IMG/VR virus record: IMGVR_UViG_3300028864_000014
Span: 171,319 to 235,318 of that record
Strand: one strand, 5' to 3'
DNA from: a virus
DNA: 64,000 bases
The notes beneath the pieces were generated by a model. It made no database searches. It saw only the letters and a program-made list of their open reading frames with translations, and was not told the DNA's origin. This document shows positions 34,763 to 61,074 of this stretch, piece by piece. The translations under genes and the position numbers were made by a program. The stretch's first letter is position 1; every line of letters starts with the position of its first letter.

Positions 34763-37700
34763 TTAGAAAATTATAATCGCATTAGCATTGTCATATCCAG
34801 TTTGTATTGCAATATCTAAAATAACTAAGTCAGTTAAAGCAGGTAAAGTTACTCCAACTAATGTTATTTCATCGTAAGTAATATCACTAATTGAAACAGT
34901 TACTCCTGAACAGTTAGTTGTTAATAATACTCTTGATATTGTTTTATCTGTTATCCATTGAAATCTTTGAGGACTTGGTGTGCTATTTGCTCCAATTTTA
35001 CTTAAAGATAAACTTTGAGGTATAATTGATGAATCAACAGTAATTCCATTTCCGTCAATACAAAGATGAATTTCACCACCATTAATAGGAGTAGGGTAAG
35101 AACCATCATTTTTCTTACAATAATATAATTTTCCTCCTGATATTTCAACAAACTGTCCTACACAATTATTATAAGTACCTCCATTTATCGTAGTAAATGA
35201 AGAAGATAATCCTTCACAATTAGTAAAAGTACCAGAGCAAATTCCATTAAAACTACCGTTATTCCCTTTACAATTTAAAAATGTACCAGTTAAATTATTT
35301 ACTTGAAAAATTAATACAGAATTTACATCTGTAAATGTTCCAGATAATGTATCAATTGAACTTGAAAATAATGGCAAATTATTAGAACTGAATATGTTTT
35401 TGAAAATACCTGAGCAATTAAAAATACCTGAAAACCCAGATCCCATTGTAATATTTATATTCTTAAATGTTCCAGATGCAGTAACATCACCATTAGTAGT
35501 ATCAGCTTGAATTTGTCCAGAGCAATTTTCAATATATAATTCTGGAAAATTTCCTGTTAGTTTTAAGCCACCGTCAATAAAGTTAATACCATTTATTTTT
35601 ATTTTATTATTAGTAATTATAACACCAGAACCACCAATATTTACATCGATATTTCCAGTAGATGAAACTAAATTTATATTTTGAGTATCTAAATTAAGAC
35701 TATCAGTTAGAAAACTATAATATCCAGGATATATAATAATATTAACTGGACTATCTGGTGCTGGTACTATAGCTTTCGCTATATTATACACATTTTGCAA
35801 TTCATTTCCATTTATTCCAGGATTACTATTTCCACCTTTTACTGTTAAAAATTGAGTTCCTATTGTTGGAGCAAAATCACCTCCCCCAATTATTTTTCCA
35901 TAACCGTCAATACATAATATAATTGTACCTCCACTTGAAGGTATTTCAAATGTACCTGGAGTAGTCAATCTACAATTATATAAACTTCCTGTTAATGCTC
36001 CACCTCGTGTAGAGTCACCAAAAGATTTACTTTTTGCTGTACAATTTATAAATGTTCCAGATGCAATACCATCAATTCCAAATGAAGTATTTCCAGCAGT
36101 ACAATTTATAAATGTTCCAGATACATTTGCTCCAACTTCATTTGTTCCAAATGAGAAATCTCCAGAATTACAATTAATAAATGTACCAGATAAAGATGTT
36201 GAAGAAAATCCAGTTTCAGCAGTACAATTTATAAATCTTCCAGATAAATCTCCATTCTCTCCATTAAACAACGCACCGTCTGATGTTATATTTTCAAAAT
36301 GACCAGGAAAGTCAGAAACACCTGATCCAAATGTGTTATTTGTTAATTTTAAATTTTTAAATGTTCCAGATAAAATAGTACTATTATCAATTGTGCTACC
36401 TTTAATTTGTCCTGAACAATTTTCAATCCTTAATCCAGGAAAATTTCCTCTTATTTCTAATCCCATACCTGTAAAATTTATACCAATTAATTTAATATTA
36501 TCTGTGATAATTAATATACCACTATAACCAATTTCAATATCTAATTCCCCTGTTGAAGAAATTAAATTTATATAAGGAGTATCTAAACTAATTAATGATG
36601 TCATTCCATAATAACCAGGATAAATAATTATATTAATTGGACTAATTATTGTTGGATTTAAAGCCTTAGCTATATTATAAACATTCTGTAACTCAGCTCC
36701 ATTTGTTCCAGGATCACTACTGATTCCTTTAACTGTTAAATATTGATTTCCATCTGATGGAGCAAAATCTCCTGCTCCTATTACTGCTCCATAACCGTCA
36801 ATACATAACAGAATAGTACCTCCACTTGAAGGAAGTCCAAATGTACCTGGCGTAGTCAATCTACAATTATATAAACTACCTGTTAATGTTCCACCTTGTT
36901 TAGAATCACCAAAAGATCCAGTATTACCTTTTGCTGTACAATTCACAAATGTTCCAGATGTCATACAATGAGCACCAAATGAAGAATTTCCAGCATTACA
37001 ATTAATAAATGTACCAGACACTTCTATTCCACTATTACCAAATGAATTATCACCAGAATTGCAATTAATAAAAGTAGTTCCAGATGATATAATACAACCT
37101 CCTCCTCCTCCAAATCCAGCATCATCACATGTACAATTTTCAAATGTCGCACCAGATGATATGACAGCTCCTCCTACACCAAATCCGTTTGCAGCATTAC
37201 AATTTTTGAATATACCAGATATAATTTTAGTATCATAAAATAAATTTCCACCTTTATGATATATATTTTCAAAATATCCAGATGCTTCTTGTATATAACC
37301 AAATCCATTACCATTAACTAAATTTATATCTTTAAAAGTTCCAGATAAATTAGTATCTGGATACGTTAAAATATTACCCCCATCTATCATTCCTGAACAA
37401 TTTTCAATCCATAACCCTGGAAAATTTCCAGTGAGTTTTAATCCACTACCTCCAAAAAATATACCTGTCAATTTAATATTATCTGAAATAACAATAGCGC
37501 CAGCAAATTCAATTTTAACATCTAATTCTCCTGTTGCTGATATTAAATTTATATAAGGAGTATCTAAACTAAGTCCATTAGACATTCCGTAATATCCAGG
37601 ATATATAATTATGTTTATAGGATTATTTGAACTCGGATTTATAGATTTTGCTAAATCATATACAGTTTGTAATTCCTCTCCATTTATTCCAGAATCAACA

Positions 37701-38770
37701 TTTTTTCCTTCAACAGTTAAATATTGAGCACCATCAGATGGAGCATAATTAGTTGGAATTCCAACTACATTAGTTGCTGATATATTTGTTATTTTTGATC
37801 CATCTCCACTCATTGTACCACCACTTACAACTAAATTACAATCTACTATTACATATCCAGTACTATTAATAGGTTTTATTGCTTCATAATCTGCATGTCT
37901 TATTGACTTTAATGCATCGCCAACATTATCTATTGTTATATTTGGATTGACACTTATCATATAAGACGTCATTGTTTCAAAATCAGAATTTAAAGGTACT
38001 CTCCAACCATCTGGATTATTTTGTATTAATGTGTTAGCTGCAAATAAGCAATATATTCTACCGTATATAACATTTATATCATTTTGAGTATATCCACTAG
38101 GCATGGTAAAAGGTAAATTAAATATTGCATAATCTTCTATAATATTTTCAATTGGATATTCAGCATAAGCAGGATATTGAGTACTAGTATTATACCACCA
38201 ATCATGATCATCCAAAGTTACTAATGAAGTTGTTGCAGATGATGCATAATCATATCCATTTATAACTCTTAAATTTTCTCTAGTCCAAATTTGAGTACCA
38301 ATTTTAACACAACTATATACATTTCCGTCTATATCTGTGAATCCAGATGAAATTATTTCTCCATCAGATAATAATGTTTCACCTGAAGTCGCTTCACGAG
38401 TTAGTCTTATTGAAAATCCATTATATCCAGACCATTCATTATATGAAATAGTAGATAATTGATTATCTAAAAGTGCAGCATAAAATTTAGTAGATGTACT
38501 ACCTGGTGTTGAAGTTCCAAAATAAGTTGAAAATCCGTTATTAAAATAAACTCCTTGGTTTCCTCTAATACCTGCTGTTACAGCGTCAAAATTATAATAA
38601 TCTTTTCCATATATATTATAATCCCCACTATACCACCAAAGAGGAAATTCAGTTGTAGTTCCAATAGTTGGTGGTACTTTTTCCCAATAACTTGCAGAAC
38701 TACTTCCAGTTAATCCGCTTTCAAATCCTCTAACCCATTCCTGACTAGCTAAATATATTATTTCACTCAT
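34763..38770 (-). CDS. giant modular tail adhesin, 1335 aa
   Basis: I-I-Y-L-A-S-Q-E-W-V at the N-terminus is the shared anchor. Residues about 145-310 match the Fib_succ_major domain (D-I-D-G-N-V-Y-S-C-V-K-I-G, W-T-R-E-N-L-R, D-G-W-R-V-P), common in Bacteroidota surface proteins. Three ~300-residue modules follow, each with D-F/Y-A-P, Q-Y-L-T-V-K-G, I-Y-P-G-Y-Y, G-N-F-P-G-L-x-I-E-N-C-S-G and G-T-F-I-N-C repeats, forming parallel beta-helices. A beta-rich domain ends it. Probably the longest fibre, contacting the host surface. Confidence 0.88.
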   Translation of the reverse strand: MSEIIYLASQEWVRGFESGLTGSSSASYWEKVPPTIGTTTEFPLWWYSGDYNIYGKDYYNFDAVTAGIRGNQGVYFNNGFSTYFGTSTPGSTSTKFYAALLDNQLSTISYNEWSGYNGFSIRLTREATSGETLLSDGEIISSGFTDIDGNVYSCVKIGTQIWTRENLRVINGYDYASSATTSLVTLDDHDWWYNTSTQYPAYAEYPIENIIEDYAIFNLPFTMPSGYTQNDINVIYGRIYCLFAANTLIQNNPDGWRVPLNSDFETMTSYMISVNPNITIDNVGDALKSIRHADYEAIKPINSTGYVIVDCNLVVSGGTMSGDGSKITNISATNVVGIPTNYAPSDGAQYLTVEGKNVDSGINGEELQTVYDLAKSINPSSNNPINIIIYPGYYGMSNGLSLDTPYINLISATGELDVKIEFAGAIVISDNIKLTGIFFGGSGLKLTGNFPGLWIENCSGMIDGGNILTYPDTNLSGTFKDINLVNGNGFGYIQEASGYFENIYHKGGNLFYDTKIISGIFKNCNAANGFGVGGAVISSGATFENCTCDDAGFGGGGGCIISSGTTFINCNSGDNSFGNSGIEVSGTFINCNAGNSSFGAHCMTSGTFVNCTAKGNTGSFGDSKQGGTLTGSLYNCRLTTPGTFGLPSSGGTILLCIDGYGAVIGAGDFAPSDGNQYLTVKGISSDPGTNGAELQNVYNIAKALNPTIISPINIIIYPGYYGMTSLISLDTPYINLISSTGELDIEIGYSGILIITDNIKLIGINFTGMGLEIRGNFPGLRIENCSGQIKGSTIDNSTILSGTFKNLKLTNNTFGSGVSDFPGHFENITSDGALFNGENGDLSGRFINCTAETGFSSTSLSGTFINCNSGDFSFGTNEVGANVSGTFINCTAGNTSFGIDGIASGTFINCTAKSKSFGDSTRGGALTGSLYNCRLTTPGTFEIPSSGGTIILCIDGYGKIIGGGDFAPTIGTQFLTVKGGNSNPGINGNELQNVYNIAKAIVPAPDSPVNIIIYPGYYSFLTDSLNLDTQNINLVSSTGNIDVNIGGSGVIITNNKIKINGINFIDGGLKLTGNFPELYIENCSGQIQADTTNGDVTASGTFKNINITMGSGFSGIFNCSGIFKNIFSSNNLPLFSSSIDTLSGTFTDVNSVLIFQVNNLTGTFLNCKGNNGSFNGICSGTFTNCEGLSSSFTTINGGTYNNCVGQFVEISGGKLYYCKKNDGSYPTPINGGEIHLCIDGNGITVDSSIIPQSLSLSKIGANSTPSPQRFQWITDKTISRVLLTTNCSGVTVSISDITYDEITLVGVTLPALTDLVILDIAIQTGYDNANAIIIF

Positions 38771-39192: not shown

Positions 39193-39936
39193 TTATATTC
39201 CAAATCTGGATCTTATAGCAGTAAAATTATTCATAATTTCACTATCATTTAATGCTCTATTATATCTTCTTTGAGTTGCAATATACCCAGAAAAATGCTC
39301 TTGCATTGAATTGTATGCTCCAACATAATGTCCAGATGTATCTGAAAATGGTGTTGCTGGATTATATGGAACAGAATTTGAATTTACTAATTCACCATTT
39401 ATATAAATTCTGAATCCAGTATCACTTAATACTGCTGCTACATATGTCCAGGTATTTAAATATATATGACCACCAGACATCTCTCCATTATTTGTACAAT
39501 AAATCCATAAACTTCCATTATTCTGTACTCTGAATCTATATTGATATCCAAACCCTTTTGAACATATTTGTCTATTATCATTTAAATTATCACAATAAAT
39601 AACAGAATCTAATGTTATGTTGGTATTTAATGAACTAAAATCTGGTGAGACACCAACACCCATTCCTTGTGTTCCGTCAAACCTCATGCTACCTCCTCCT
39701 ATTGTTTGAAATTCATTTCCAGTATTTAGATACGCATTATTTTCTCTTCCTGTTAAATCATACCAAATATTTCCAGATTTAGGATAAGATGCTAGATTTC
39801 CTGCATCCAAATCTAAAACTGTTATTCCAGTTGTAGTGATACCAGTTATAATATCTGCTGATGCCCATAAATTATCTACACCTTTAAATGGTATAATTTC
39901 TTCTGGGTTAAATAATTCTCCGCTATAATATTTCAT
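39193..39936 (-). CDS. LamG/concanavalin-like tail protein
   Basis: V-L-D-L-D-A-G-N, I-W-Y-D-L-T-G-R-E-N-N-A and S-M-R-F-D-G-T-Q-G start a jelly-roll fold, and W-T-Y-V-A-A-V-L-S and F-R-I-Y-I-N-G-E-L-V are classic laminin-G-like strands. Ending: Q-R-R-Y-N-R-A-L-N-D-S-E-I. This domain binds sugars in many phage and Bacteroidota surface proteins. Probable glycan-binding tail component. Confidence 0.87.
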   Translation of the reverse strand: MKYYSGELFNPEEIIPFKGVDNLWASADIITGITTTGITVLDLDAGNLASYPKSGNIWYDLTGRENNAYLNTGNEFQTIGGGSMRFDGTQGMGVGVSPDFSSLNTNITLDSVIYCDNLNDNRQICSKGFGYQYRFRVQNNGSLWIYCTNNGEMSGGHIYLNTWTYVAAVLSDTGFRIYINGELVNSNSVPYNPATPFSDTSGHYVGAYNSMQEHFSGYIATQRRYNRALNDSEIMNNFTAIRSRFGI

Positions 39937-39937: not shown

Positions 39938-40354
39938 TTAAATGTTTTTAATTGCTACTGCATAAATTTCAAAAGCAGTTTCTGTAAATACCTGTTCATA
40001 AACAATTGTCCAAGTAGAATTGATTCCTAAAATAGGAATATTTCCACGCCAAACAACTCCAGTCGGTTGATAAATTGTAGGTACTGAGCTTCCTGTTTTG
40101 AATATTAAAATTGATTCATTAACTAACCCATTTGCTGGAGTAGGAAGAATAACAGTTATTGTGTTTCCACTCGATATTGTTCCAATATATGTTTCAGTCC
40201 AATTATCTAAATTTAAATTTCCAGTAGGAGAATTTATTTTTTTATATTTATATACAGTATTGATTGTGACTCCACTACCAATTGCAACAGTTAATCCACT
40301 GAAAATATCACTAACCCATTCTTCACTTGCTAAATGTATTATATCTGAAGCCAT
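39938..40354 (-). CDS. small tail protein with I-x-L-A-S-E-E-W-V anchor
   Basis: I-I-H-L-A-S-E-E-W-V-S-D-I-F-S-G-L-T-V at the N-terminus is the shared anchor. The rest is beta-rich (T-V-I-L-P-T-P-A-N-G-L-V-N-E). It stands one base from the LamG gene and may attach it to the virion. Confidence 0.82.
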   Translation of the reverse strand: MASDIIHLASEEWVSDIFSGLTVAIGSGVTINTVYKYKKINSPTGNLNLDNWTETYIGTISSGNTITVILPTPANGLVNESILIFKTGSSVPTIYQPTGVVWRGNIPILGINSTWTIVYEQVFTETAFEIYAVAIKNI

Positions 40355-40357: not shown

Positions 40358-40687
40358 TTAAAATGTTATTTTATTTATAACGCCATTCATCATATAATTT
40401 ATAAATCCAGTTACTGTATCACCTTCGATCGTTACTGCAGATGCGATAAATTTATACACATCAGTTGGATTTACTAATGCTGGTTTTTTCAAATTATATG
40501 CTAATATTGCTTTGCTTACATCAGAAGGATTTGCAGTGTTTCCAGATGCGATTAATGCTAATATATCATTTTTAGCTGCAGTATCTCCAGAATTTGTACT
40601 TGATAATATTTTTTTCTGATCTTCTGTTGGAAATACTCGATCTTTTGGCATCCAAACTCCTTCACTTAGGGATATTAAATTTGTCAT
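40358..40687 (-). CDS. small structural protein with related N-terminus
   Basis: L-I-S-L-S-E-G-V-W-M matches the anchor loosely (I-x-L-A-S-E-E-W-V). The remainder is helical with alternating Gly/Ser linkers (N-S-G-D-T-A-A-K-N-D-I-L-A-L-I-A-S-G-N-T). It is preceded by a TATATATA-containing element. Confidence 0.78.
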   Translation of the reverse strand: MTNLISLSEGVWMPKDRVFPTEDQKKILSSTNSGDTAAKNDILALIASGNTANPSDVSKAILAYNLKKPALVNPTDVYKFIASAVTIEGDTVTGFINYMMNGVINKITF

Positions 40688-40811: not shown

Positions 40812-43469
40812 TTATAAATTTGCATCTACAATAACCATTTTATCATAAATTAATTTTTGCTCTCCGTTTGAATTAACAAATAATTCTTTTGTGTAAGTAT
40901 TATAAATATACGTTGATGATGTTAAATCTAAATTAAAATAATTAAAATTGTCACATACAGTATTCATATTAAAATTACTACCAATTATAATATTTTGAAA
41001 ACTACTACCAATTGTGTTATTATTAAAACTATCACCAATAGTATTCTCAGAAAAATTACTACCAACAATATTATTCTTAAAATCTTCTCCAACTGTATTA
41101 GATTGAGAATAATTATTAATAGTATTATTTTTAAAATTATTTCCTACTGTAAATTCACAGCCACTACCGAATGTATTATATTGAAAATTGTCTAATGTTG
41201 TTAAATTACATTGACTTCCAATTGTATTATTTTGAAAATTACTACCGATTGTAAAATTGCATTGTCCAACAAATGTATTATTATAACAATTATCAGAAAT
41301 AGAACCGTTAATCTGACTACCAAAATTATTATTTGAAAATTGACTTCCTATTGTCAAATTACATTGATTTCCAAATACATTATCATAACAATTATCTCCA
41401 ATTGACAAATTACATTGACTACCAAATATATTATTAGAAAATCCTGATCCTCCTAATGACAAATTACATGAACTATTAAAAATATTATTGGAATAATTAT
41501 CACCTAGATTACATTTAGCCTGACTACCAAATGTATTATAACTAAAATAATTACCTAAAATACTATCTACAATAATTCCACCAAATATATTATACTGACA
41601 ATAATTTCCAATTTTGTTACGCACAAAATTGTTTTCAATTGTATTATTCCAAAAATCAGTACCAATTGTATCAAATTGACAATAATTTTTAAATGTATTA
41701 TATTTACTATTATTGCCTATATTAATCGTATTACATTGAATACCAAATATATTACCTTGTCCATTTAATATAGTAATATTTGAAGAGTTGCTTCCAATTG
41801 AATTATTAAAGCAACTACCAGAAAATATATTAAAGCTACATTGATATTCAATAACATTATTACTACAATTACCATCAAATGTATTATTCATACTATAACT
41901 TTCAATCGTATTATTAACATTATTAATACCAAATGTGTTACGAGAACATGAGTTTTTAATGATATTACTATTATTACCATTTCCAAATATATTATTACTG
42001 CACATGTTGCCTATTATATTATCATGAAAACTATTTCCTATTGTATTATATTGACAATCATGATCAATAATATTATCTTTACTATCATTACCAATTATAT
42101 TATAACTAAACTGGTGATTAATATTATTTTGATAAAAAGTAGTTCCAATTGTATTATTATAAAATGAATCTCCAATTGTATTATTATTAAAATTAGTATC
42201 TGTGGTATTATTACGATACTCATTTTTTATATTATTATATTGAAAATAATCTCTGTTTTTATTACTACCAAAATTATTTCCAATTATATTATCTGAAAAA
42301 TAGCTTTTGATATTATTATCTCCAAAATAATTTCCAGTTGTATTTGATACAAAATAATATCCAATACTATTATTTTGAAAACTTTTTCCAATATTATTAA
42401 AAATAAAATTATAGCTAATACTATTCTGATTGAAACTATTTTCTATTGTATTATTTTGAAAATCCATACCAATATTATTATTATAATATTGATTTATAAT
42501 ATTATTAAAAATAAAATTATTTCCAATAATATTATCAAAAATATAATCACCAATATTATTATTTTGAAAAAAATCACCAACACTATTATTATTAAAATAA
42601 TTTCCAATTATATTATTTTGAAAATAACCACCTATGCTATTATTAATAAAATTATTTCCAATAATTTTATTATATTGAAAATAACTTCCAAAAATTATAG
42701 TATTTTTATTGCTTATAATATCACCATTATTGGTATTACTATTATGTTGTTCTATCTTATTAGAATGAGAATAATTATAATTATTAATATCAGACCACAT
42801 ATTATAGTCAGTGTAACCTGTACTACATGAAATGTTTGAATTCCCAATGCTCCATACATTTTCAGTTGGACTCACATAAGACAAGTTATTCCATTTAAAT
42901 TGATTCCAATTATATGAAAAATTATTATCTCCAATAGTATTATTATATAAACAAATATAAATTGATCCATTGTATAAAACAACATCATTTTTTTGATATG
43001 TTGTTCCTGAATTCCAAACATTATTTACAATTATCTGCCATCTTCTAAATTTAACTTGTCTAAAATCAAATGATATATCATTATCTTGAATCGTATCTAT
43101 TCTTCTATAAATATATCCATATTGACAGCCAGGTACCATATTAGAATCATTTCTATAATTATAATATATTATATCCTGAGGATATAAACTTGAATGAGCC
43201 TCAACATTTAATGTATTAAAACTACTTGATATTACCAATAACGGTTCATTTATACCGTAATTAATATCACTTGTGTTTGTTATCTGATGTACTGTTTGAT
43301 AATCAGTAATCAAATATGCTTGGTTAGGAATTAAACTATTCGAGTTAATTAAATTTAGTAAATCATTATAAGTTAAATCTATAACTGATGTTCCGCCAGA
43401 ACCTCCACCTGTGGATCCAGTCAATTGACTATTAACCCACTCTTCACTAGCTAATTGAATATTTATCAT
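40812..43469 (-). CDS. long nonapeptide-solenoid tail fibre, 885 aa
   Basis: I-Q-L-A-S-E-E-W-V at the start, then the ITDYQT domain (about 50-170) with L-I-T-D-Y-Q-T-V-H and [12 protein letters not shown]. From about 255 to 830 runs a solenoid of roughly 60 nine-residue units, F-x-x-N-x-I-G-x-x, with a variant having C in place of F (N-x-F-G-x-x-C) in the second half. The end has Y-T-K-E-L-F-V-N-S and I-Y-D-K-M-V-I-V-D. It has no collagen-like region. Probable receptor-binding fibre; longest solenoid of the set. Confidence 0.9.
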   Translation of the reverse strand: MINIQLASEEWVNSQLTGSTGGGSGGTSVIDLTYNDLLNLINSNSLIPNQAYLITDYQTVHQITNTSDINYGINEPLLVISSSFNTLNVEAHSSLYPQDIIYYNYRNDSNMVPGCQYGYIYRRIDTIQDNDISFDFRQVKFRRWQIIVNNVWNSGTTYQKNDVVLYNGSIYICLYNNTIGDNNFSYNWNQFKWNNLSYVSPTENVWSIGNSNISCSTGYTDYNMWSDINNYNYSHSNKIEQHNSNTNNGDIISNKNTIIFGSYFQYNKIIGNNFINNSIGGYFQNNIIGNYFNNNSVGDFFQNNNIGDYIFDNIIGNNFIFNNIINQYYNNNIGMDFQNNTIENSFNQNSISYNFIFNNIGKSFQNNSIGYYFVSNTTGNYFGDNNIKSYFSDNIIGNNFGSNKNRDYFQYNNIKNEYRNNTTDTNFNNNTIGDSFYNNTIGTTFYQNNINHQFSYNIIGNDSKDNIIDHDCQYNTIGNSFHDNIIGNMCSNNIFGNGNNSNIIKNSCSRNTFGINNVNNTIESYSMNNTFDGNCSNNVIEYQCSFNIFSGSCFNNSIGSNSSNITILNGQGNIFGIQCNTINIGNNSKYNTFKNYCQFDTIGTDFWNNTIENNFVRNKIGNYCQYNIFGGIIVDSILGNYFSYNTFGSQAKCNLGDNYSNNIFNSSCNLSLGGSGFSNNIFGSQCNLSIGDNCYDNVFGNQCNLTIGSQFSNNNFGSQINGSISDNCYNNTFVGQCNFTIGSNFQNNTIGSQCNLTTLDNFQYNTFGSGCEFTVGNNFKNNTINNYSQSNTVGEDFKNNIVGSNFSENTIGDSFNNNTIGSSFQNIIIGSNFNMNTVCDNFNYFNLDLTSSTYIYNTYTKELFVNSNGEQKLIYDKMVIVDANL

Positions 43470-45492: not shown

Positions 45493-46266
<774 letters not shown>

Positions 46267-46267
<1 letters not shown>

Positions 46268-47065: not shown

Positions 47066-47985
<920 letters not shown>

Positions 47986-47989
47986 TAAT

Positions 47990-50626
<2,637 letters not shown>

Positions 50627-50634
<8 letters not shown>

Positions 50635-51091
50635 AGAAGAATTATCAAATTGGTTGATTAGCAAAATTTTATATTGCTATCCAGTAGTAGATAAAGAATG
50701 GAATGATTACGTTTTTTATTTCTATGACGAACAATATATTAGAAAACTTAAATTGTTTAAGTTATATAATATAAAAATAACATCGCCAAATCAAGTTAAT
50801 GGAATATGCTTATTTAGTTTAAATATTAAATATAAAATTATTTACTTTCATTATGAATATGTTTGGAAATTCTTTGAAAATAATTATATAAATAATTATA
50901 TACAAATTGAAAAATTTATAACTGAAATTATAAATGATTATAAACAACTAAATAAGTATTCACCAAAAAAAAATTCACAAGGATTTAGATATCCTGAACT
51001 AATAAGAAGTAAGAAAAATTTAGAAATTAGAGAAGCTGATTGGTCATCTCTACTTCCAAGTTCATATAAAAAATTAATAGTATTGAAATAA
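50627..51091 (+). CDS. family D array gene 13
   Basis: N-W-L-I-S-K-I-L-Y-C-Y-P-V, V-F-Y-F-Y-D-E-Q and Y-I-R-K-L-K-L-F-K-L-Y-N-I-K, then C-L-F-S-L. Last gene of the array. Ends against a bidirectional terminator. Confidence 0.84.
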
Positions 51092-51092
51092 A

Positions 51093-51120
51093 AAAACTCA
51101 GTTAAATTAACTGAGTTTTT
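51093..51120. terminator. bidirectional terminator (CTCAGTTAA type)
   Basis: AACTCAGTTAA and TTAACTGAGTT (51095-51117) between the array and the fibre operon. Nearly the same hairpin recurs at 52911, 55360, 57251 and 58912. Confidence 0.9.
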
Positions 51121-51124
51121 TATT

Positions 51125-52870
51125 TTATGCATTTGCATTAACAATAGTATTTCTATCGTATGCTAACTTTTGAATCACAGATGAATCAACATATAAATCT
51201 TTTGTGTAACTATTATAAATATATGTAGATGCTGTAAAATCTGATAAATGATAATTGTTAATACCAACATCATAATTACCAATATTGAAATTATCACAAA
51301 CATTATTCATCTTAAAATTGCTACCAATTACATTACGATTAAACGCGTTACCAATAGTATTATAGCTAAAAACATTTCCAATGTTATTGATGTCAAATCC
51401 ATTTCCAATAGTATTAAATTGAAAATAATTCCCAATAATATTACCATTAAAATATCCACCAAAAGAATTTCCTGTATTATTATTTTGAAAATTAGAACCA
51501 ATCCTATTATTTTGCGAGCCATTTCCAATAGTATTACATAGAGCAGCATATCCAATACTATTATAACTAAAATATGATTCAATAGTATTACGAGAAAACG
51601 CTTCACCAATATAATTATGAATAAAATATTCTCCAATACTATTATAAAAAAACACATCTGAAATAGTATTATATTGAAACATGCTTCTTATTGTATTATT
51701 ATAAAAACTAGCTCCAATACTATTATTCATAATATTACTTTCAATTGTATTAAATGTAAAATTAACTCCGATACTATTGTGTTCAAAATTTCCTCCTATT
51801 GTATTATTAAAAAAACTAGCTCCAATACTATTATAACTAAAATATGATTCAATTGTATTGCAGTTAATATTATTTCCAAAAAATACAGTATTATTACAAT
51901 TAAGTATATCTCCATCTCCAATGTAATCTTGTTTTATTCTATTAGAATAAATTGTACTATCATATGTATTAAACATCAGATAATCAGTATATAAAGTGGA
52001 TGTTGGAATACTAAAATAAAGATACCAATTTGTTATATTTGGACTAGAATAACTTAAATTAGCCCATTCAAAACGTTTCCAAATAATTTGATTTGTTTGT
52101 GTTGATGGATTCACACCAATTACATTATCAATTAAACATATATAAATTTGTGTTGTCCCACTGATTAAAACAACATCACTTCTCATATATGTTGATCCTG
52201 AATTCCAAATGTTTGTAACATTCAATTGCCATCTTCTAAATTTTACTTGTCTGAAGTCAAATGGAATATCATTATTTTTTAATGTATCAACTCTTCTATA
52301 AATATATCCTTTTGCACATCCAGGCATCATACTTTGATTATTATTGAAATCATAATATATTATATCATTCGGATATAATCTTGAATACGTCTCAGGCTTT
52401 AATGTATTAACACTACTTGCAGTTACTAATAAAGGTTCTGTTGTTCCTGAATTTATAATAGTTGTTTCAGGTATTCTATGTATAGTTTGATAATCAGTAA
52501 TTAAATATGCTTGATTAGTAGTTAATCCACTATTATTAATTAATGTTACTAATCCACTATATGTGACATTTGTAACTGAATTTGTACCTCCACTAGAACT
52601 TATACTAATACCTGATGTTCCTGATGTACCATTTTGTCCAGAACTTCCATATCCAACTGAACCATTCTGTCCTGAAGTTCCTGACGTTCCTGAATTACCG
52701 GAACTTCCTGTGTTTCCAGTTGATCCATTCTGTCCAGATGTTCCAGATTTACCTGCTGTTCCACTAGTCCCATTTTGACCTGATGTACCAGAGGTGCCTG
52801 TTGATCCACCTGTTGTTCCAGATAATCTTCCTTCAACCCATTCTTCACTCGCTAACTGTATATTTACCAT
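51125..52870 (-). CDS. tail fibre with collagen-like region, 581 aa
   Basis: Anchor I-Q-L-A-S-E-E-W-V-E-G-R-L-S-G-T-T-G, a G-T-S/Q-N-G collagen-like stretch (about 18-95), the ITDYQT domain, a solenoid of F-x-x-N-x-I-G repeats (about 325-520) and the C-terminal Y-T-K-D-L-Y-V-D-S and I-V-N-A-N-A. The first 75 or so residues are almost identical to those of 55407-57197. Probable receptor-binding fibre. Confidence 0.9.
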   Translation of the reverse strand: MVNIQLASEEWVEGRLSGTTGGSTGTSGTSGQNGTSGTAGKSGTSGQNGSTGNTGSSGNSGTSGTSGQNGSVGYGSSGQNGTSGTSGISISSSGGTNSVTNVTYSGLVTLINNSGLTTNQAYLITDYQTIHRIPETTIINSGTTEPLLVTASSVNTLKPETYSRLYPNDIIYYDFNNNQSMMPGCAKGYIYRRVDTLKNNDIPFDFRQVKFRRWQLNVTNIWNSGSTYMRSDVVLISGTTQIYICLIDNVIGVNPSTQTNQIIWKRFEWANLSYSSPNITNWYLYFSIPTSTLYTDYLMFNTYDSTIYSNRIKQDYIGDGDILNCNNTVFFGNNINCNTIESYFSYNSIGASFFNNTIGGNFEHNSIGVNFTFNTIESNIMNNSIGASFYNNTIRSMFQYNTISDVFFYNSIGEYFIHNYIGEAFSRNTIESYFSYNSIGYAALCNTIGNGSQNNRIGSNFQNNNTGNSFGGYFNGNIIGNYFQFNTIGNGFDINNIGNVFSYNTIGNAFNRNVIGSNFKMNNVCDNFNIGNYDVGINNYHLSDFTASTYIYNSYTKDLYVDSSVIQKLAYDRNTIVNANA

Positions 52871-52880
52871 TAATTTTTTT

Positions 52881-52897
52881 TATTTGTATATATTAAA
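52881..52897 (-). promoter_or_regulatory. putative late promoter element (51125 fibre)
   Basis: Minus-strand TTTAATATATACAAATA is followed by A-rich sequence and the ATG at 52870. Confidence 0.6.
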
Positions 52898-52910
52898 AAA
52901 CAATAAATAA

Positions 52911-52940
52911 AAAACTCAGTTAAATTAACTGAGTTTTTTT
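52911..52940. terminator. repeated-type terminator
   Basis: AACTCAGTTAA and TTAACTGAGTT with T run. Ends the 52942 gene on the minus strand. Confidence 0.85.
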
Positions 52941-52941
52941 A

Positions 52942-53334
52942 TTAATTTCCTATGATTTTAAGTTTTATACTTTTTTTACATATCTCACAAAATACATTAA
53001 ATTGATTAAAAATTGCTTCATCTATTCCAGCTAATTTTTTTCGTTGAATTGCTAATTGCTGATCATATGTATATTCAGAATTAATAAGTCCTGATACTTG
53101 TGATTCATATGATAAAGAATCATATTCATATAATCCTTCTTGAATATAATCACCCATATCAGTGTAAATTTTCCAACCAGTACTTCCAGATGAAAATCTC
53201 AATTCTTTGTAACCATTTTCAATACATAAATCAGAATTGTTATTAAATCCAACTATTCCATCTTTACTTTTTGGTGCTTTTTCGATAGTAACTTTATCTA
53301 TCATTTTTACATACGTTCTTTTAAATATATTCAT
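52942..53334 (-). CDS. short tail accessory protein (I-E-N-G-Y-K-E type), copy 2
   Basis: I-E-N-G-Y-K-E-L-R-F-S-S-G-S-T-G-W matches 38813-39172. The second half contains Y-T-Y-D-Q-Q-L-A-I-Q-R-K-K, a pattern typical of small phage tail assembly proteins. It follows the adhesin gene 53344-55305 on the same transcript. Confidence 0.77.
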   Translation of the reverse strand: MNIFKRTYVKMIDKVTIEKAPKSKDGIVGFNNNSDLCIENGYKELRFSSGSTGWKIYTDMGDYIQEGLYEYDSLSYESQVSGLINSEYTYDQQLAIQRKKLAGIDEAIFNQFNVFCEICKKSIKLKIIGN

Positions 53335-53343
53335 AATTATTAT

Positions 53344-55305
53344 TTATTTTTGAAATTCATAAGCTCCAATATCAATAGTAGTTCCACTAATTCTATTATT
53401 TGATTTTACATCAAAAACAGATCCATAACCAGAAGTATTATCGCTATTTATTCCGTTGTCTATTAAAAAAGATTGTTCTGAAATATTAAGATTACAAACT
53501 AATACATCATCTACTACTCCTGAATTTAAAGATATTATATCAAAATAAGGACTATTAGTATCTCCACTATTATTAGTAGAAATTGATATATTTCCAATAC
53601 CTGGTCGTTCGTCATTTTCAAATGCAGAATATTCTTCAATACTTGAATTTGTATTAACTACATTATTTTGAGTTCCAGCTATTGATTTATTTCCCCAAAC
53701 TACAGTATTCTTTAATACACAGTTATTTGTACCACCTCCTGAATTTCTGACAACTGAACAATTTATAAGATTAGCAGATTCTGCTCCTCCAACTAGACTT
53801 GCTCCGTAGTTGTTAAAAATTGAGCATGATATTAATGTTCCACCACTTACTCCTCCTACATTACCATTTGAATAATTATTATATACAATTGAACTGATCA
53901 AATTTGAATTATATGATCCTGCTGAGTAACTTAAATAGTTAAGAGATTCATTAGAGTTAATAGAGCAATTTACTAAATTCGAAATAAAAAGTGTTGTTCC
54001 TTTAGCAGCAGTGCTAATGTTTTTATTTATATCAGAATTTGAAAATGATGATAAAAAACCTGCTGAAACACTTCCAACTGTAGAATTATTACTTATAAAG
54101 CAGTTCGTTAGTGATGAATTTATTGCTCCTGCTGATCCACTATATCCATATCGGTCTCCCATATCAGAATTAACTGTTCCAGTATTAACATTACTTGAAA
54201 TTATAGAATTACTAATTGATGAATTTATAACTCCTACTCCACCATTTATATTTCCAATTGATGAATTAAAAGATACTAAGCAGTTATTAAGATTTGCTCC
54301 ATAAACACCACTCCATGATGAATACCAGTAATCGTAAGATTCAATATTATTAATTATTTGACAATTTGATAATATTAATGTACCTGAAGAATGAATTCCT
54401 GCACATAAATATGGTATTGAGTCATTGAAAGAATCCGATATTTGAAATCCGTTTACAACTGATTTTATACCTGAACTACAATAAAGAGTAGTATATGAAG
54501 AAGTTATCTGAGAACCTAATAAATTACCAGACATTATACTTTTATTTTTTGGTACAGGAACAAATAAATCTATATTTCCAGATGGTAATCTTAATATTTC
54601 TTTGTAAGATACCATATCACGCTCATATAGAGAACTTTCAGTACCAATAAATCCTCCGAATATATTTATTCCAGTCTTAAGAAGAAATGATGCAGATCTG
54701 GCATCTCCAATTGTTCTTAATGTAGTAGGTAAATAAGTAATTCCACTTTCAGATCCTTTAACAAAAATTGCATCACCAGAATTTGACAAATCAATAGCTG
54801 TTTGAATATTCTTATACGAATTTGTCCATGATAATCCATCATTAGTATCTAATCCATTATCTCCATCAACATATCTTATAACTGAACCTATTATCTCAAA
54901 TCCATTTTCATCAATTCCAACAGTAGCGATATTTTTATAAATAAGTCCTAGCCTCCAAGTAATGCCATTATCTGATGATGACATTGTATACATATATTCA
55001 CCTACTTCTGTTGGATATTCTAAATTGTCAAATAAAAAATTATTTGGAAAACTTAATGACACATAATCGTTAAGTTTAATTTTTAAATATAATTGAACAT
55101 ATTTACTCATATCAACATTTCCTGTATTTACAGTTACTGTTAATCCTGACGCTGTTGATATATCATATACTTTAATATTCTTGTCTAATATAATAGAACC
55201 TGATACAACTTGTTCAGTGTTATATTGAATTGTGTTACCATCTGTTAAATTTCCTACTATATCAGTTACCCAGTTTTGATTAGCTAAATATATTATTTCA
55301 TCCAT
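53344..55305 (-). CDS. PMP-like beta-helix tail adhesin, 653 aa
   Basis: I-I-Y-L-A-N-Q-N-W-V anchor. From about residue 140: R-Y-V-D-G-D-N-G-L-D-T-N-D-G-L-S-W, I-Q-T-A-I-D, G-D-A-I-F-V-K-G and I-N-I-F-G-G-F-I-G-T-E, the standard opening of Bacteroidota outer-membrane right-handed beta-helix proteins. Repeated S/N-C-x-I/V-x-x-N units follow to about 560. The end D-I-G-A-Y-E-F is also typical of those proteins. Probably acquired from a host gene. Confidence 0.9.
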   Translation of the reverse strand: MDEIIYLANQNWVTDIVGNLTDGNTIQYNTEQVVSGSIILDKNIKVYDISTASGLTVTVNTGNVDMSKYVQLYLKIKLNDYVSLSFPNNFLFDNLEYPTEVGEYMYTMSSSDNGITWRLGLIYKNIATVGIDENGFEIIGSVIRYVDGDNGLDTNDGLSWTNSYKNIQTAIDLSNSGDAIFVKGSESGITYLPTTLRTIGDARSASFLLKTGINIFGGFIGTESSLYERDMVSYKEILRLPSGNIDLFVPVPKNKSIMSGNLLGSQITSSYTTLYCSSGIKSVVNGFQISDSFNDSIPYLCAGIHSSGTLILSNCQIINNIESYDYWYSSWSGVYGANLNNCLVSFNSSIGNINGGVGVINSSISNSIISSNVNTGTVNSDMGDRYGYSGSAGAINSSLTNCFISNNSTVGSVSAGFLSSFSNSDINKNISTAAKGTTLFISNLVNCSINSNESLNYLSYSAGSYNSNLISSIVYNNYSNGNVGGVSGGTLISCSIFNNYGASLVGGAESANLINCSVVRNSGGGTNNCVLKNTVVWGNKSIAGTQNNVVNTNSSIEEYSAFENDERPGIGNISISTNNSGDTNSPYFDIISLNSGVVDDVLVCNLNISEQSFLIDNGINSDNTSGYGSVFDVKSNNRISGTTIDIGAYEFQK

Positions 55306-55314
55306 TTATATTTT

Positions 55315-55332
55315 TATTTCTATATATAAATT
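55315..55332 (-). promoter_or_regulatory. putative late promoter element (53344 adhesin)
   Basis: Minus-strand TTTATATATAGAAATAAA a few bases before the ATG at 55305. Confidence 0.62.
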
Positions 55333-55406: not shown

Positions 55407-57197
55407 TTAAGCATTTGCACTCACAATAACAGTCTTATCATATATTAACTTTAACTGTGATGAAGAATTACTAAATATTTCTTTTGTATATGAATTATAA
55501 ACATAAGTAGATGATAAAAAATTTGTTCCAGTAACACCACATTGAATAAAATTGTGAGCAAAATTACTTCCTATTGTATTACCACTAAATGTCTCTATTA
55601 TTGAATTATTTGTAAAATAATTTCCTACTGTATTAATACCAAAATAATTTGATATTGAATTATGTCCAAAATCAGTTCCTATTATATTAGTACCAAATCC
55701 ACTTTTTATTGTATTATACATAAAATTAGTTCCTATTGTATTAGCACCAAAATTACTTCCTATTGAATTATATCCAAAATTAGTTCCTATTTTATTATTA
55801 CCAAAATTTCCTCCTATTACATTCAAAGAAGAATTGTTTCCTATCGTGTTAGTACCAAAATTTCCTCCTACCACATTTAAAGTGAAAGCGTTTCCTATTA
55901 TATTATATCCAAAATTGATATCTATAATATTATTAGTGAGTCCATATCCTATAAAATTAAATTGACAATTACGTTCAATTGAATTATAAGTAAAACTATC
56001 ACCTATTACATTAAAATTAAAACTATTTCCTATTGTATTATCAGAAAAACTTCCTCCTATTGAATTAATAGCGAAACTGTTTCCTAATTTATTTTTATTA
56101 AATGCATATGAAATAGAATTATTATAAAAACTATCTCCTATTGTATTAGTATTAAAACTATTTCCTATTGTGTTCTCATAAAAATTGTTTCCTATAGTAT
56201 TATTATAAAAACCAGATCCAAGTGTGACTGAATTATTGTTTGATATTATATTTGTTGATGACTGTTCAATTGAAATATTGAAACTCGATGAATAATCCCA
56301 AAACATATTATAATCTGTATATCCAGTCGAACATGGAATATTAACACTGAACAAAGCCCAACTATTTTTATATGGACTTGTGTAACTTAAATTACCCCAT
56401 TCAAATAATTTCCAAATTGAATCAATGGATGGATCAATTCCAGTCACAAGATTATTCATACAAATATAAATCTTAGTTGTTCCACCACTTAAAACAACAT
56501 CATTCTTATTGTATGTCGTACTATTATTCCAAATGTTAGTAACATTCAATTGAAATCTTCTGAACTTTACCTTTCTAAAATCAAAAGGTATGTCATTAAC
56601 CTGAATTGTGTCTATCCTTCTATAAATATATCCTTTAGTACAACCAGATACCATACTTTGATTATTAGTATAATTATAATAAATAATATCCTGAGGATAT
56701 AATGCTGAATATGCTTCTGGTTTTAATGAATTAATACCACTTGCTGTAACTAATAAAGGTTCTGTTGTTCCTGAACTTAACTCAGTTGTTTTAGGAATTA
56801 CATATACTGTCTGATAATCTGTTATTAAATATTGATTACCTATTGTTAATCCATTTGAAGATATTAAATTAGATAAACTATTATATGTCAAATTTGTAAC
56901 TGTACTTGTACTTCCACTAGGAGAATTACCAGATGTTCCAGATGTTCCTGAACCTGATGTACCAGAAGTTCCTGAATTTCCAGCAGATCCATTCTGTCCT
57001 GAAGTTCCTGACGTTCCTGAATTACCAGAACTTCCTGTGTTTCCAGTTGATCCATTCTGTCCAGATGTGCCTGATCTACCTGCTGTTCCACTAGTTCCAT
57101 TTTGACCTGATGTACCAGACGTACCTGTTGATCCACCTGTTGTTCCAGATAACCTTCCTTCAACCCATTCTTCACTCACCAATTGAATATTTATCAT
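55407..57197 (-). CDS. tail fibre with collagen-like region, 596 aa
   Basis: Anchor I-Q-L-V-S-E-E-W-V, long G-T-S/Q-N-G triplet region (about 18-100), ITDYQT domain and R-R-I-D-T-I-Q, solenoid repeats (about 335-550) with many N-F-G units, and the end Y-T-K-E-I-F and V-I-V-S-A-N-A. N-terminal quarter nearly identical to 51125-52870, the solenoid different. Probable receptor-binding fibre. Confidence 0.9.
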   Translation of the reverse strand: MINIQLVSEEWVEGRLSGTTGGSTGTSGTSGQNGTSGTAGRSGTSGQNGSTGNTGSSGNSGTSGTSGQNGSAGNSGTSGTSGSGTSGTSGNSPSGSTSTVTNLTYNSLSNLISSNGLTIGNQYLITDYQTVYVIPKTTELSSGTTEPLLVTASGINSLKPEAYSALYPQDIIYYNYTNNQSMVSGCTKGYIYRRIDTIQVNDIPFDFRKVKFRRFQLNVTNIWNNSTTYNKNDVVLSGGTTKIYICMNNLVTGIDPSIDSIWKLFEWGNLSYTSPYKNSWALFSVNIPCSTGYTDYNMFWDYSSSFNISIEQSSTNIISNNNSVTLGSGFYNNTIGNNFYENTIGNSFNTNTIGDSFYNNSISYAFNKNKLGNSFAINSIGGSFSDNTIGNSFNFNVIGDSFTYNSIERNCQFNFIGYGLTNNIIDINFGYNIIGNAFTLNVVGGNFGTNTIGNNSSLNVIGGNFGNNKIGTNFGYNSIGSNFGANTIGTNFMYNTIKSGFGTNIIGTDFGHNSISNYFGINTVGNYFTNNSIIETFSGNTIGSNFAHNFIQCGVTGTNFLSSTYVYNSYTKEIFSNSSSQLKLIYDKTVIVSANA

Positions 57198-57296: not shown

Positions 57297-58874
57297 TTAT
57301 TCAATGACATCTACTATTGTTGTCACATCATATACTAACTTGTTAAGCCCTGTTGAATCAACATATAAGTTTTTAGTATAGGCTAAATAGATATATGTTG
57401 ATGATGATAAATCTAATCCAGATCCAAAATTATCACATATATTGTTCATAGTAAAATTACTTCCAATTGTATTAGTATTAAAGTTACTTCCAATTGAATT
57501 ATTTTGAAAGTTACTTCCAATTGAATTATAATTAAAATCACTTACAATTGTATTACCACTAAAAATACTTTCAATAGAATTATTATTAAAATTACTTCCA
57601 ATTGCATTTCTTTCAAATCCATATCCAATTGAAGTATTAGTATTAAAATCACTTCCAATTGAATTTTTTTGAAAGTTACTTAATATAGTATTATATTGAA
57701 AGTTGCTTCCTATATTATTATATTGATAATAATTATCCACACTATTAAAATTGAAATTATTTGAAATTGTATTATAGTTGAAATTTGCGCCAATTGTATC
57801 ATTATTGGAAAATAGACTTCCAATTGAATTATTATTAAAATTATTTCCAATATTAGAGTTGGAACTAAAATCTGCTCCAATTAAATTATTATAAAAACTA
57901 CTTGCAATATTATTACTAGTAAAATTACCTCCAATTATATTATTGTAAAAATTATTTGAAATTGTATTATAGTTGAAATTATTTGAAATTGTATTACCAC
58001 TAAAATTAATATCAATATTATTATTTTGAAAATATGATTCAATATTATTAGAGTTAAAATTATCTCCTATGTTGTCATTTTTATTAAAATCACTTCCAAT
58101 TATATTATTGTAAAAATTATTTGAAATTGTATTATGGTAAAAATTATTTGAAATTGTATTACCACTAAAAAATTTTCCAATTGAATTATACATAAAGTAA
58201 TTTTCAATACTATTATCATTAAAATTGTCTCCTATTGTATTACCTGAAAAACCAGTTCCTATTTTATTATTCTTAAAATTGCTTCCTATTGTATTACTAT
58301 TAAAACCATCTCCTATTGTATTATCACGAAAATTACTTCCTAAAATTATAGAATTATTTTGATCTATTCTATAATTTAGTGCTCCTATTTTATTATTAAA
58401 AGCAGTTGAATAATCAACAAAAAAATTATAAACTGTAACTCCACTACTTATATAATTATTTACAATCTTAAAATTTCTAAAATCAAAAGGCATATCATTA
58501 TTCTGTATTGTATCTATCCTTCTATAAATATATCCTTTAGTAGAACCATGTATAACATTAGTATTATTATTGAAATCATAATATATAATATCCTTAGGAT
58601 ATAATGCTGAATATGCTTCTGGTTTTAATGTATTAACTCCACTAGCTGTTACTAATAAAGGTTCAATTATACCAGTGAAAGTATTTCCATAATATGCATC
58701 AATATAAATAGTCTGATAATCTGTAATCAAATACTGACTTCCAATTGTTAATACACTATTATTAATCAAATCGCCCAATTCATTATATGTAACATTAGTT
58801 ACTGAAGAACCACCAGTACCTCCGCCTAATTGTCCTTCAACCCACTCTTCACTTGCTAATTGTATATTTATCAT
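57297..58874 (-). CDS. tail fibre without collagen-like region, 525 aa
   Basis: Anchor I-Q-L-A-S-E-E-W-V-E-G-Q-L-G-G-G-T-G, then directly the ITDYQT domain (about 25-130). The solenoid (about 165-480) has highly regular F-x-x-N-x-I/S-I-G-x units and includes repeated near-identical blocks. The end has Y-T-K-N-L-Y-V-D-S. The W-Q-x-N-V-x-N-V-W-N-S segment found in the other fibres is missing, so part of the connector has been deleted. Confidence 0.9.
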   Translation of the reverse strand: MINIQLASEEWVEGQLGGGTGGSSVTNVTYNELGDLINNSVLTIGSQYLITDYQTIYIDAYYGNTFTGIIEPLLVTASGVNTLKPEAYSALYPKDIIYYDFNNNTNVIHGSTKGYIYRRIDTIQNNDMPFDFRNFKIVNNYISSGVTVYNFFVDYSTAFNNKIGALNYRIDQNNSIILGSNFRDNTIGDGFNSNTIGSNFKNNKIGTGFSGNTIGDNFNDNSIENYFMYNSIGKFFSGNTISNNFYHNTISNNFYNNIIGSDFNKNDNIGDNFNSNNIESYFQNNNIDINFSGNTISNNFNYNTISNNFYNNIIGGNFTSNNIASSFYNNLIGADFSSNSNIGNNFNNNSIGSLFSNNDTIGANFNYNTISNNFNFNSVDNYYQYNNIGSNFQYNTILSNFQKNSIGSDFNTNTSIGYGFERNAIGSNFNNNSIESIFSGNTIVSDFNYNSIGSNFQNNSIGSNFNTNTIGSNFTMNNICDNFGSGLDLSSSTYIYLAYTKNLYVDSTGLNKLVYDVTTIVDVIE

Positions 58875-58883
58875 TTATCATTT

Positions 58884-58900
58884 TATTTCTATATATAAAT
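58884..58900 (-). promoter_or_regulatory. putative late promoter element (57297 fibre)
   Basis: Minus-strand ATTTATATATAGAAATA before the ATG at 58874. Confidence 0.62.
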
Positions 58901-58911
58901 TAACAAACTAA

Positions 58912-58944
58912 AAAACTCAGTTAAATTATTTTAACTGAGTTTTT
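58912..58944. terminator. repeated-type terminator
   Basis: AACTCAGTTAAA and TTTAACTGAGTT with T run; ends the glycosyltransferase gene. Confidence 0.85.
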
Positions 58945-58946
58945 GT

Positions 58947-59561
58947 TTAATTAATATCAGATGTTATATTTAACGATTGATCAAATATTCCCTCACAATA
59001 CATATACTTATTGTCCAATTTTATAATATATAAAATACTATCAATATTTAAATCAGATGATGCAAAATCCTTTATACATTTAAAAGATTCTTTATGAATA
59101 GCATAACTATGAGTGAATAATTTACCTGGAATTTTTTCAATTCCTTTATGTACTTTATCTCTGAATATTCCTTTAATGATATTATTCTCCTTCCTGAATT
59201 GTATCATATTATCAAAATAAAATAAATTCCAATTATTGTTCTTTAAAAAATTAAAACAAATATCTAAATGATAATCTAATTTTTTTTCAATCTCTATGTT
59301 ATCCTGATTAAAACAAACATCATCCTCAAATATAAATATCTTATCATAATCATTTTCTATAGCATCATCTATACAACTAATATGAGATGATTTACAAGAT
59401 TTAGTAGAACTAATATCATCAGTGATAGGAACAATTTTCTTATATTTAGTTATATTTAATATTCTAAACATATTCATTATGTTATCATATCTATCAGTCC
59501 TAATTGGTAAATTTATAAAATATACCATATCAAAATATTCAAAATAATTATGCAGTAGCAT
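58947..59561 (-). CDS. family 25-type glycosyltransferase
   Basis: V-Y-F-I-N-L-P-I-R-T-D-R (13-24) is the hallmark opening of GT25 (LPS biosynthesis, procollagen galactosyltransferase) enzymes. S-S-H-I-S-C-I-D-D-A-I near residue 60 corresponds to the family's C-x-x-S-H segment. F-I-F-E-D-D-V (76-82) is the metal-binding acidic motif. Full length is 204, short but complete for phage forms. It starts inside the fibre gene 59548-61074, so the two are coupled. It may glycosylate fibres or alter host glycans. Confidence 0.85.
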   Translation of the reverse strand: MLLHNYFEYFDMVYFINLPIRTDRYDNIMNMFRILNITKYKKIVPITDDISSTKSCKSSHISCIDDAIENDYDKIFIFEDDVCFNQDNIEIEKKLDYHLDICFNFLKNNNWNLFYFDNMIQFRKENNIIKGIFRDKVHKGIEKIPGKLFTHSYAIHKESFKCIKDFASSDLNIDSILYIIKLDNKYMYCEGIFDQSLNITSDIN

Positions 59562-61074
59562 CTACTATTGTTACTTTATCATAAATTAATTTTCTTTGAC
59601 CTGATGAATTAACAAATAAATCTTTAGAATATTGATTATAAACATGAGTGGATGATGTGAAATTTAATCCACTATGATCAAAATTAAAATAATCACAAAC
59701 ATTATTCATTGTAAAATTGCTTCCAATTGTATTACTATTAAAATAACTTCCAATTGTATTATATTGAAAATTACTTCCAATTGTATTACTATTAAAATAA
59801 CTTTCTATACTATTATTTTGAAAATACATTATAATATTATTAAATGTAAATACATTTTCAATCGTATTATTTTGAAAATTACTTCCGATAGTATTATAAT
59901 AAAAATTACCAAAAATAGTATTATTATTAAATAAACTTCCTATACTATTATTTTGAAAAGCATTTCCAATTGTATTATACTGAAAATTATTCAAAATTGT
60001 ATTCCAATTAATCATACCTCCAATTGTATTAAATCTAAAATTTATTCCAATAATATTACTGTCAAAATAATCATCTATTGAATTATTTTGAAAAAAATCA
60101 TCTAATAAATTATCAGAAAAATTGTTTTTTATTGAATTATTATTAAATCCAAAACCAATCAAATTATTGAAAAAATATGAACCTATTTTATTAAAACTAA
60201 ATGAATTAAAAATAGTATTGTTGAAAAAATATGAACCTATTTTATTGTTATTAAATTGATAACCAAATATTACATTATTTGAATATGTAATCATATCTGA
60301 TCCATATATATTTGACATAGGAATTAAAAATTGTTTATCTATAATATTATTAAAACTAGTATTATAATCATTCCAATTACTCCACATATTATAATCTGTA
60401 TAACCAGTAGAACAAGGTAAATATAAAGCATTAAACTGATATCCTACACTTGTCGTACTTACATATGATTTGTTACTTATCATATAAAATGTATTCCAAT
60501 AATTAGTATTACTTAACTGATTACCTGTATTTCCACTTACTATACTAACATACAGAATATTATTTGTATTACCGCTTAAAACAACATTATTACGATTATA
60601 TGTTGTTCCAGAATTCCAAACTTCACTAACATTTATTTGCCATCTTCTAAACTTAACATTCCTAAAATCAAAAGGAATATCATTGTTCTGTGCAGTATCT
60701 ATCCTTCTATAAATGTAACCTTTAGTACATCCAATTACCATAGTCTGATCACTATAGTAATTATAGTAAATTATATCCTGAGGAAATAAACTTGAATATG
60801 CCTCAGGCTTTAATTTATTAACTCCACTTGCTGTAACTAATAAAGGTTCTGTCATTCCACTATTTATATCAGTTGTATTAGGTATCTTATGTACTGTTTG
60901 ATAATCAGTAATTAAATATTGTCCACCAATAGTTAAATTATTAGTATTAATTAATGATGTTAATTCATTATATGTAACATCAGTTACTGAATTTGTGTTG
61001 CCTGTTGATCCACCAGTACCTCCGCCAAACTGTTCCTCAACCCATTCTTCACTTGCTAATTGTATATTTATCAT
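59548..61074 (-). CDS. tail fibre coupled to the glycosyltransferase, 508 aa
   Basis: Anchor I-Q-L-A-S-E-E-W-V-E-E-Q-F-G-G-G-T-G, ITDYQT domain (about 30-165), W-Q-I-N-V-S-E-V-W-N-S connector, solenoid (about 265-465), then Y-S-K-D-L-F-V-N-S and V-T-I-V-D-A-T-A. The stop region overlaps the glycosyltransferase start by 14 bases. No collagen-like region. Confidence 0.9.
   Translation of the reverse strand: MINIQLASEEWVEEQFGGGTGGSTGNTNSVTDVTYNELTSLINTNNLTIGGQYLITDYQTVHKIPNTTDINSGMTEPLLVTASGVNKLKPEAYSSLFPQDIIYYNYYSDQTMVIGCTKGYIYRRIDTAQNNDIPFDFRNVKFRRWQINVSEVWNSGTTYNRNNVVLSGNTNNILYVSIVSGNTGNQLSNTNYWNTFYMISNKSYVSTTSVGYQFNALYLPCSTGYTDYNMWSNWNDYNTSFNNIIDKQFLIPMSNIYGSDMITYSNNVIFGYQFNNNKIGSYFFNNTIFNSFSFNKIGSYFFNNLIGFGFNNNSIKNNFSDNLLDDFFQNNSIDDYFDSNIIGINFRFNTIGGMINWNTILNNFQYNTIGNAFQNNSIGSLFNNNTIFGNFYYNTIGSNFQNNTIENVFTFNNIIMYFQNNSIESYFNSNTIGSNFQYNTIGSYFNSNTIGSNFTMNNVCDYFNFDHSGLNFTSSTHVYNQYSKDLFVNSSGQRKLIYDKVTIVDATA

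Follow-up and report, generated by a model that had tools for sequence, protein, structure and literature searches.

Short peptides at the extreme N-terminus dock receptor-binding proteins in several phages. The tailspikes of K1E, K1-5 and SP6 carry such peptides, 7-11 residues long, ahead of otherwise unrelated receptor-binding bodies; in K1-5 both tailspikes are seated on an adapter through MAKLTKP and MIQRLGSSLVK (Leiman 2007, as cited in PMC6872550). These tailspikes are enzymatic, and each peptide has one site and one tailspike per virus. Different phage groups have different docking peptides, that proposed for KP34-like phages being MALxxLV (PMC6872550). Klebsiella phages of the KP34/KP32, Menlow and PhiK64-1 group likewise re-use short heads on swapped bodies in a multi-fibre branched apparatus, some of them being jumbo phages, and co-encode an anchor with T4 gp10-like docking domains 2/3 (PMC6872550). 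The jumbo phage phiKp24 has 14 predicted fibres in a hyperbranched set, grouped by head length; one of them is proposed to attach through a short peptide of 51 aa at its N-terminus (PMC9700779). In T4, about 10 N-terminal residues, the capsid-targeting sequence, suffice to direct unrelated proteins to one virion place (PMC9026906); this sequence sits on internal head proteins, leads into the head and is cleaved.

Here we analyse a 64,000-nucleotide stretch of an uncultured virus (the window), in which one nonapeptide, I-x-L-A-S-E/Q-E/N-W-V (the tag), heads eight proteins. Two traits of peptide-docked secondary receptor-binding proteins are present, namely a short conserved peptide (such peptides have about 7-20 residues) at the extreme N-terminus and variable, exchangeable bodies. 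Unlike the K1E, K1-5 and SP6 arrangement, one peptide is found on at least ten proteins of one virus, and without recognisable enzyme domains. Compared by eye, the tag has no sequence relation to MAKLTKP, MIQRLGSSLVK or MALxxLV; as the peptide differs between phage groups (PMC6872550), this does not speak against the mechanism. From the Klebsiella phages our case differs in host, sequence and bodies; as to their anchor, our search covered the T4 gp9/gp10 N-terminal domain (PF07880), which was found. The fibres of phiKp24 have no shared nonapeptide head and have predicted enzymatic beta-helices, unlike those described here. The T4 capsid-targeting sequence fits the tag neither in sequence nor in cleavage residue, and the tag bodies are, by sequence, fibre- or adhesin-like modules. 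A first-pass annotation had called the tag unusually small, which is not a novelty since peptides of 7 and 11 residues are described for K1-5, K1E and SP6, and short ones proposed for KP34-like phages.

DATA AND SEARCHES

The window comprises positions 171319-235318 (G000:C1) of IMG/VR record IMGVR_UViG_3300028864_000014, here G000, and is the right-hand end of this 235-kb virus record; coordinates refer to the window unless prefixed. GC content is 24%. The record is incomplete, because an overlapping contig, G003, matches the window end over 14,450 bases at 100% identity and runs on beyond it; a search of G000 for the terminase PF03237 found none, which fits an incomplete record. The virus group is known only from metagenomic fragments (environmental DNA).

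Gene content identifies the virus as a contractile-tailed phage, since G000 encodes a tail sheath as well as a baseplate protein that is gp5-like and has a peptidase domain. The sheath shares 50% identity with its counterpart in a 735-kb uncultured phage, 35-47% with those of other huge phages and ~29-32% with those of Flavobacterium and Prevotella phages. From the Fib_succ_major domains and these nearest relatives, the host group is probably Bacteroidota.

Degenerate DNA patterns for the tag were run over IMG/VR and over full records. Conservation counts were taken over 19 distinct tag proteins, from the window and from overlapping and related contigs.

RESULTS

Tag proteins in the window

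All eight proteins lie on the - strand between 34763 and 61074 and have the tag within residues 4-14 (Table 1). Among 386 predicted genes (72,383 residues) the tag pattern has eight N-terminal matches and no internal one, with 0.0 expected from 200 residue shuffles, and a pattern-free clustering of all N-termini returned the same eight proteins, and no others, as one cluster. The genome-wide search proposed in the first-pass annotation thus adds nothing to the eight within these genes, although G003, with nine pattern matches and an LVSEEW copy, raises the number of tag genes in this virus to at least ten. The patch said to be common to nonapeptide fibres, Fib_succ_major, PMP-like and small beta proteins does start all eight of them. 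Its given form, I-x-L-A-S-E-E-W-V, suits the nonapeptide fibres (pattern M[IV]NIQL[AV]SEEWV), but two of the three unrelated proteins are substituted (SQE, NQN). Nor do all nonapeptide fibres begin with it: five at 40812-61074 do, and the fibre at 24174-26066, which starts with 23 other residues (not shown), does not. The tag is also absent from the LamG protein at 39193-39936 and from nearby proteins of 503, 525 and 570 aa.

Table 1. Features of the tag locus (window coordinates)
Feature	Position	Strand	Remarks
Fib_succ_major with repeated beta-helix-like units, 1335 aa, N-terminus MSEIIYLASQEWV	34763..38770	-	body Pfam PF09603, E 6.6e-11
Tag IYLASQEWV, residues 5-13 of Fib_succ_major adhesin	38732..38758	-	
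Small beta protein, 138 aa, N-terminus MASDIIHLASEEWV	39938..40354	-	no family match
Tag IHLASEEWV, residues 6-14 of small beta protein	40313..40339	-	
Degenerate tag-like ISLSEGVWM, residues 5-13 of 109-aa protein 40358-40687	40649..40675	-	
Tag IQLASEEWV	43434..43460	-	nonapeptide fibre 40812-43469, 885 aa
Tag IQLASEEWV	52835..52861	-	nonapeptide fibre 51125-52870, 581 aa, Gly/Thr/Ser collagen-like linker
PMP-like adhesin, 653 aa, N-terminus MDEIIYLANQNWV	53344-55305	-	tag IYLANQNWV 55267..55293
Promoter-like element TTTATATATAGAAATAAAA just upstream of tag gene	55312..55330	-	pattern match
Tag IQLVSEEWV	57162..57188	-	nonapeptide fibre 55407-57197, 596 aa
Tag IQLASEEWV	58839..58865	-	nonapeptide fibre 57297-58874, 525 aa
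Family-25 glycosyltransferase gene, flanked by tag fibre genes; may encode a fibre-modifying enzyme	58947..59561	-	PF01755, E 5.2e-8
Tag IQLASEEWV	61039..61065	-	nonapeptide fibre 59548-61074, 508 aa
Untagged nonapeptide fibre, head NDGTGD..., counter-example and possible partner	24174..26066	-	T4 gp9/gp10 N-terminal domain, Pfam PF07880

Distribution among viruses

Eleven of the 19 distinct tag proteins come from overlapping and related virus contigs, which are AT-rich; in every one the tag is N-terminal, within the first 15 residues. The degenerate pattern gave 7, 5, 2, 9, 3 and 2 matches per record, and a reversed-pattern control gave none. The tag pattern is absent from the megaphages LR756500-502, LR756504 and LR745206, from phage PAU and from Flavobacterium phage MaF61, and the peptide matched nothing by tblastn against named phages. 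The nonapeptide body does have matches among named phages, only Sphingomonas phage PAU and LR756504, both without the tag. By these searches the tag marks one virus group.

Matches in IMG/VR contigs of GC 0.36-0.60 had the patch internally and were taken as chance. Of seven pattern stretches in bacterial contigs, the six placed in ORFs were all internal (five Pseudomonas, one Marinicella) and the seventh was from Halieaceae (L070); all were likewise attributed to chance. In a collagen-like protein of GC 0.36, L064 MEQVINLAEEEWI, the match is N-terminal, but its kinship to the tag is unproven.

Conservation of the tag

I, W and V are present in 19/19 tag proteins, L and A in 18/19 each, S in 17/19 and each E in 16/19, and substitutions outside I, W and V are mostly conservative. 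Two sub-forms occur, NIQLASEEWV and IIYLASEEWV. The earlier statement that the proteins have nothing in common past the patch overstates the case. Conservation extends into a G-x-T linker: 15/19 members have Gly at W+7 and 15/19 have Thr at W+9, unrelated ones included, and Gly/Ser/Thr-rich sequence follows in most. Three Fib_succ forms have lost this stretch, and their domain begins immediately. An AlphaFold2 model of the fibre at 59548-61074 has a helix at residues 9-16 and disorder after it, with very low confidence in the tag region (pLDDT ~29-34).

Third codon positions vary at the A, E and V codons of the tag while I, W and V are fixed, which suggests that selection acts on the peptide. 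The codon of the serine at position 5 is AGT in 17/17, and this uniformity suggests a single origin of the tag, spread by recombination, over convergence.

Bodies behind the tag

Six types of body stand behind the tag: LITDY/nonapeptide solenoid, Fib_succ_major, beta-helix, PMP-like, small beta, and a 333-aa protein without identification. Compared with the tag removed, LITDY/nonapeptide, Fib_succ_major and beta-helix modules are joined by chimaeras, and three singleton bodies are similar to no other. The LITDY/nonapeptide body also follows three heads other than the tag, in G000 or a related record: NDGTGD (24174-26066 and G000 143364-145166), VATIPALGG (G000 69092-71476) and MKKIQPKIF (related contig L063 3339-8621). 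The tag called universal is so within this fibre cluster, then, but at least three other head types occur on the same kind of body. Judged from these combinations, head and body recombine independently, because one tag is found on six body types and one body with four heads.

A Pfam family search recognised no enzymatic families or depolymerase domains in the tag bodies, and Foldseek with the fibre model gave weak beta-helix matches only, none at E <= 0.001.

T4 gp9/gp10-like heads are present in G000. In a search of six tag-bearing records, PF07880 was found on NDGTGD-headed fibres in five, one of these below the curated cut-off, and not in G002, a 36-kb fragment. The NDGTGD-headed fibres are a candidate primary layer, but may simply be a parallel set. 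PHROGs searches of tail-region proteins found no hub for the tag.

Upstream element and neighbouring genes

The promoter-like element TTWATATATANAAATAAAA has 13 matches in the window (<=2 mismatches) against 3.95 expected. Besides that at 55312, exact pattern matches are at 52878, 57204, 58881 and 61082; together with matches at 26079 and 43482, these stand just upstream of fibre genes on the - strand. The small beta gene begins directly behind the 109-aa gene. A 109-aa gene immediately precedes a fibre or tag gene in 3/3 places (40358-40687, G000 143003-143329, L063 2344-2673), and its protein has no relative among named phages.

Other protein families of the genome

Several further families were seen. 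A second N-terminal tag, MKYIKxFE and variants, is found on ~40-60 small, otherwise different proteins (for example window 27753-28085, 28082-28408 and 28405-28692; G000 1088-1911, 50402-53880, 138025-150701 and others), and also in the 636-kb phage LR756504 (L074). The C-terminus KF[NS][IL] occurs in 33/386 genes against 0.05 expected; many MKYIKxFE proteins end in KFN[IL], and by the patterns used 23 genes have both this head and the KF[NS][IL] end. MKYIKxFE may be a capsid-targeting sequence of the T4 kind, with a partner at the C-terminus. Tandem leucine-rich-repeat proteins with this head, many with a KFNI tail, lie beside the fibre locus of related contigs L035, L036 and L052.

About 18 paralogous proteins of 115-220 aa (20 residues, not shown, then ...FYDExxIRKxKLCKLNN) are encoded at 45493-51091, 61491-62683, 5942-6439 and 26153-26584; most of these genes form a single tandem array, which lies on the other strand from the fibres. 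Upstream of the second 109-aa gene, G000 141016-142404 (L016 1016-2404) encodes long TTTTTTLVP repeats and a C-terminal domain that by eye looks like a Hint/intein type.

DISCUSSION

A separable N-terminal module of attachment type is well supported: the tag is on six body types, one body has four heads, the position is always N-terminal, and amino acids are conserved while third positions vary. The double independence of head and body is the strongest evidence that the head is functional. Our preferred reading, which we hold to be probable, is that the nine residues and the flexible Gly/Ser/Thr linker form a modular virion-docking peptide. The tagged proteins would be virion fibres, and the tag would bind one kind of socket. 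I-x-L would form a short strand and A-S-E-E-W-V the first helix turns, together a plug for a socket that all of them share on the virion and that probably belongs to the baseplate or a primary fibre. The first-pass annotation, which had each protein docked at the same baseplate or hub site, is thus supported in part. Many different receptor-binding bodies could so be mounted at the same site, and exchanged through recombination in or just behind the tag. We count against docking that recognisable depolymerase domains are missing from the bodies, whereas tailspikes known to be docked by a peptide have them, that AlphaFold2 confidence in the tag region is very low, and that the tail-region search gave no hub.

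Alternatively, the role of the tag could lie in folding, in modification or with a chaperone. Most phage fibres are trimers, and the weakly predicted helix at residues 9-16 could begin an element for trimerisation or folding, an N-terminal short helix gathering three chains with no specific external partner; we think this unlikely, as such an element is missing where that body type has other heads, and I, W and V are invariant across very differently built proteins, beyond the needs of a generic helix start.

The peptide might also be a by-product of gene shuffling, if a 5' end (promoter, ribosome site and first codons) were copied with new bodies, the peptide being functionless or its codons mattering for translation start. 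Consistent with copying, the element just upstream is common to five tag genes, and codon identity in the tag, 0.68, exceeds the 0.52 expected from codon usage. Upstream DNA does not account for the tag, however, because the small beta and Fib_succ genes are tagged with no such element upstream; as third positions vary, yet I, W and V and almost every L and A are fixed across viruses, we regard a mere by-product as quite unlikely.

A signal for a non-virion assembly partner, such as a chaperone of the fibres or the family-25 glycosyltransferase whose gene lies among theirs, seems improbable. This glycosyltransferase gene does adjoin collagen-like/nonapeptide fibres in G000 (twice, in the window and at G000 145162-145791), L052 (6146-6760) and L063 (2714-3352), and behind the LamG and PMP-like genes come small genes that match no family. 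But enzyme and tag do not track each other, because the G000 145162-145791 copy comes after an untagged NDGTGD fibre, and a similar gene in LR756504 (L074 13567-14196), which has no family assignment, after an untagged LITDY fibre. A prohead-protease site or capsid-targeting sequence, cut as LASE/E, is hardly credible: LASE conforms in most members to the T4 gp21 cleavage rule, L/I-x-x-E, but Q replaces E at the putative cleavage residue in 3/19 (LASQ, LANQ, LATQ), and the same genome has a distinct, much larger N-terminal family like the T4 capsid-targeting sequence.

Returning to the docking peptide, the short form is a known principle, but in the few phages known to have such plugs each serves one or two fibres. 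In a limited literature search, nothing described a single short tag carried by ten bodies of the same virus; one tag on ten diverse proteins in a single virus looks like a new form of the principle. More tentatively, at least ten interchangeable adhesins might be mounted at one site by a single nonapeptide, individual particles then differing in their mix of receptor-binding proteins (mosaic or bet-hedging virions), and a new adhesin being gained by fusion behind the tag. The tag offers a sequence signature for recognising receptor-binding proteins of an uncultured large-phage group, whatever the body, and a testable plug-and-socket rule for mounting many adhesins together. Were a single socket to accept them all, fibres would be predicted to vary from particle to particle.
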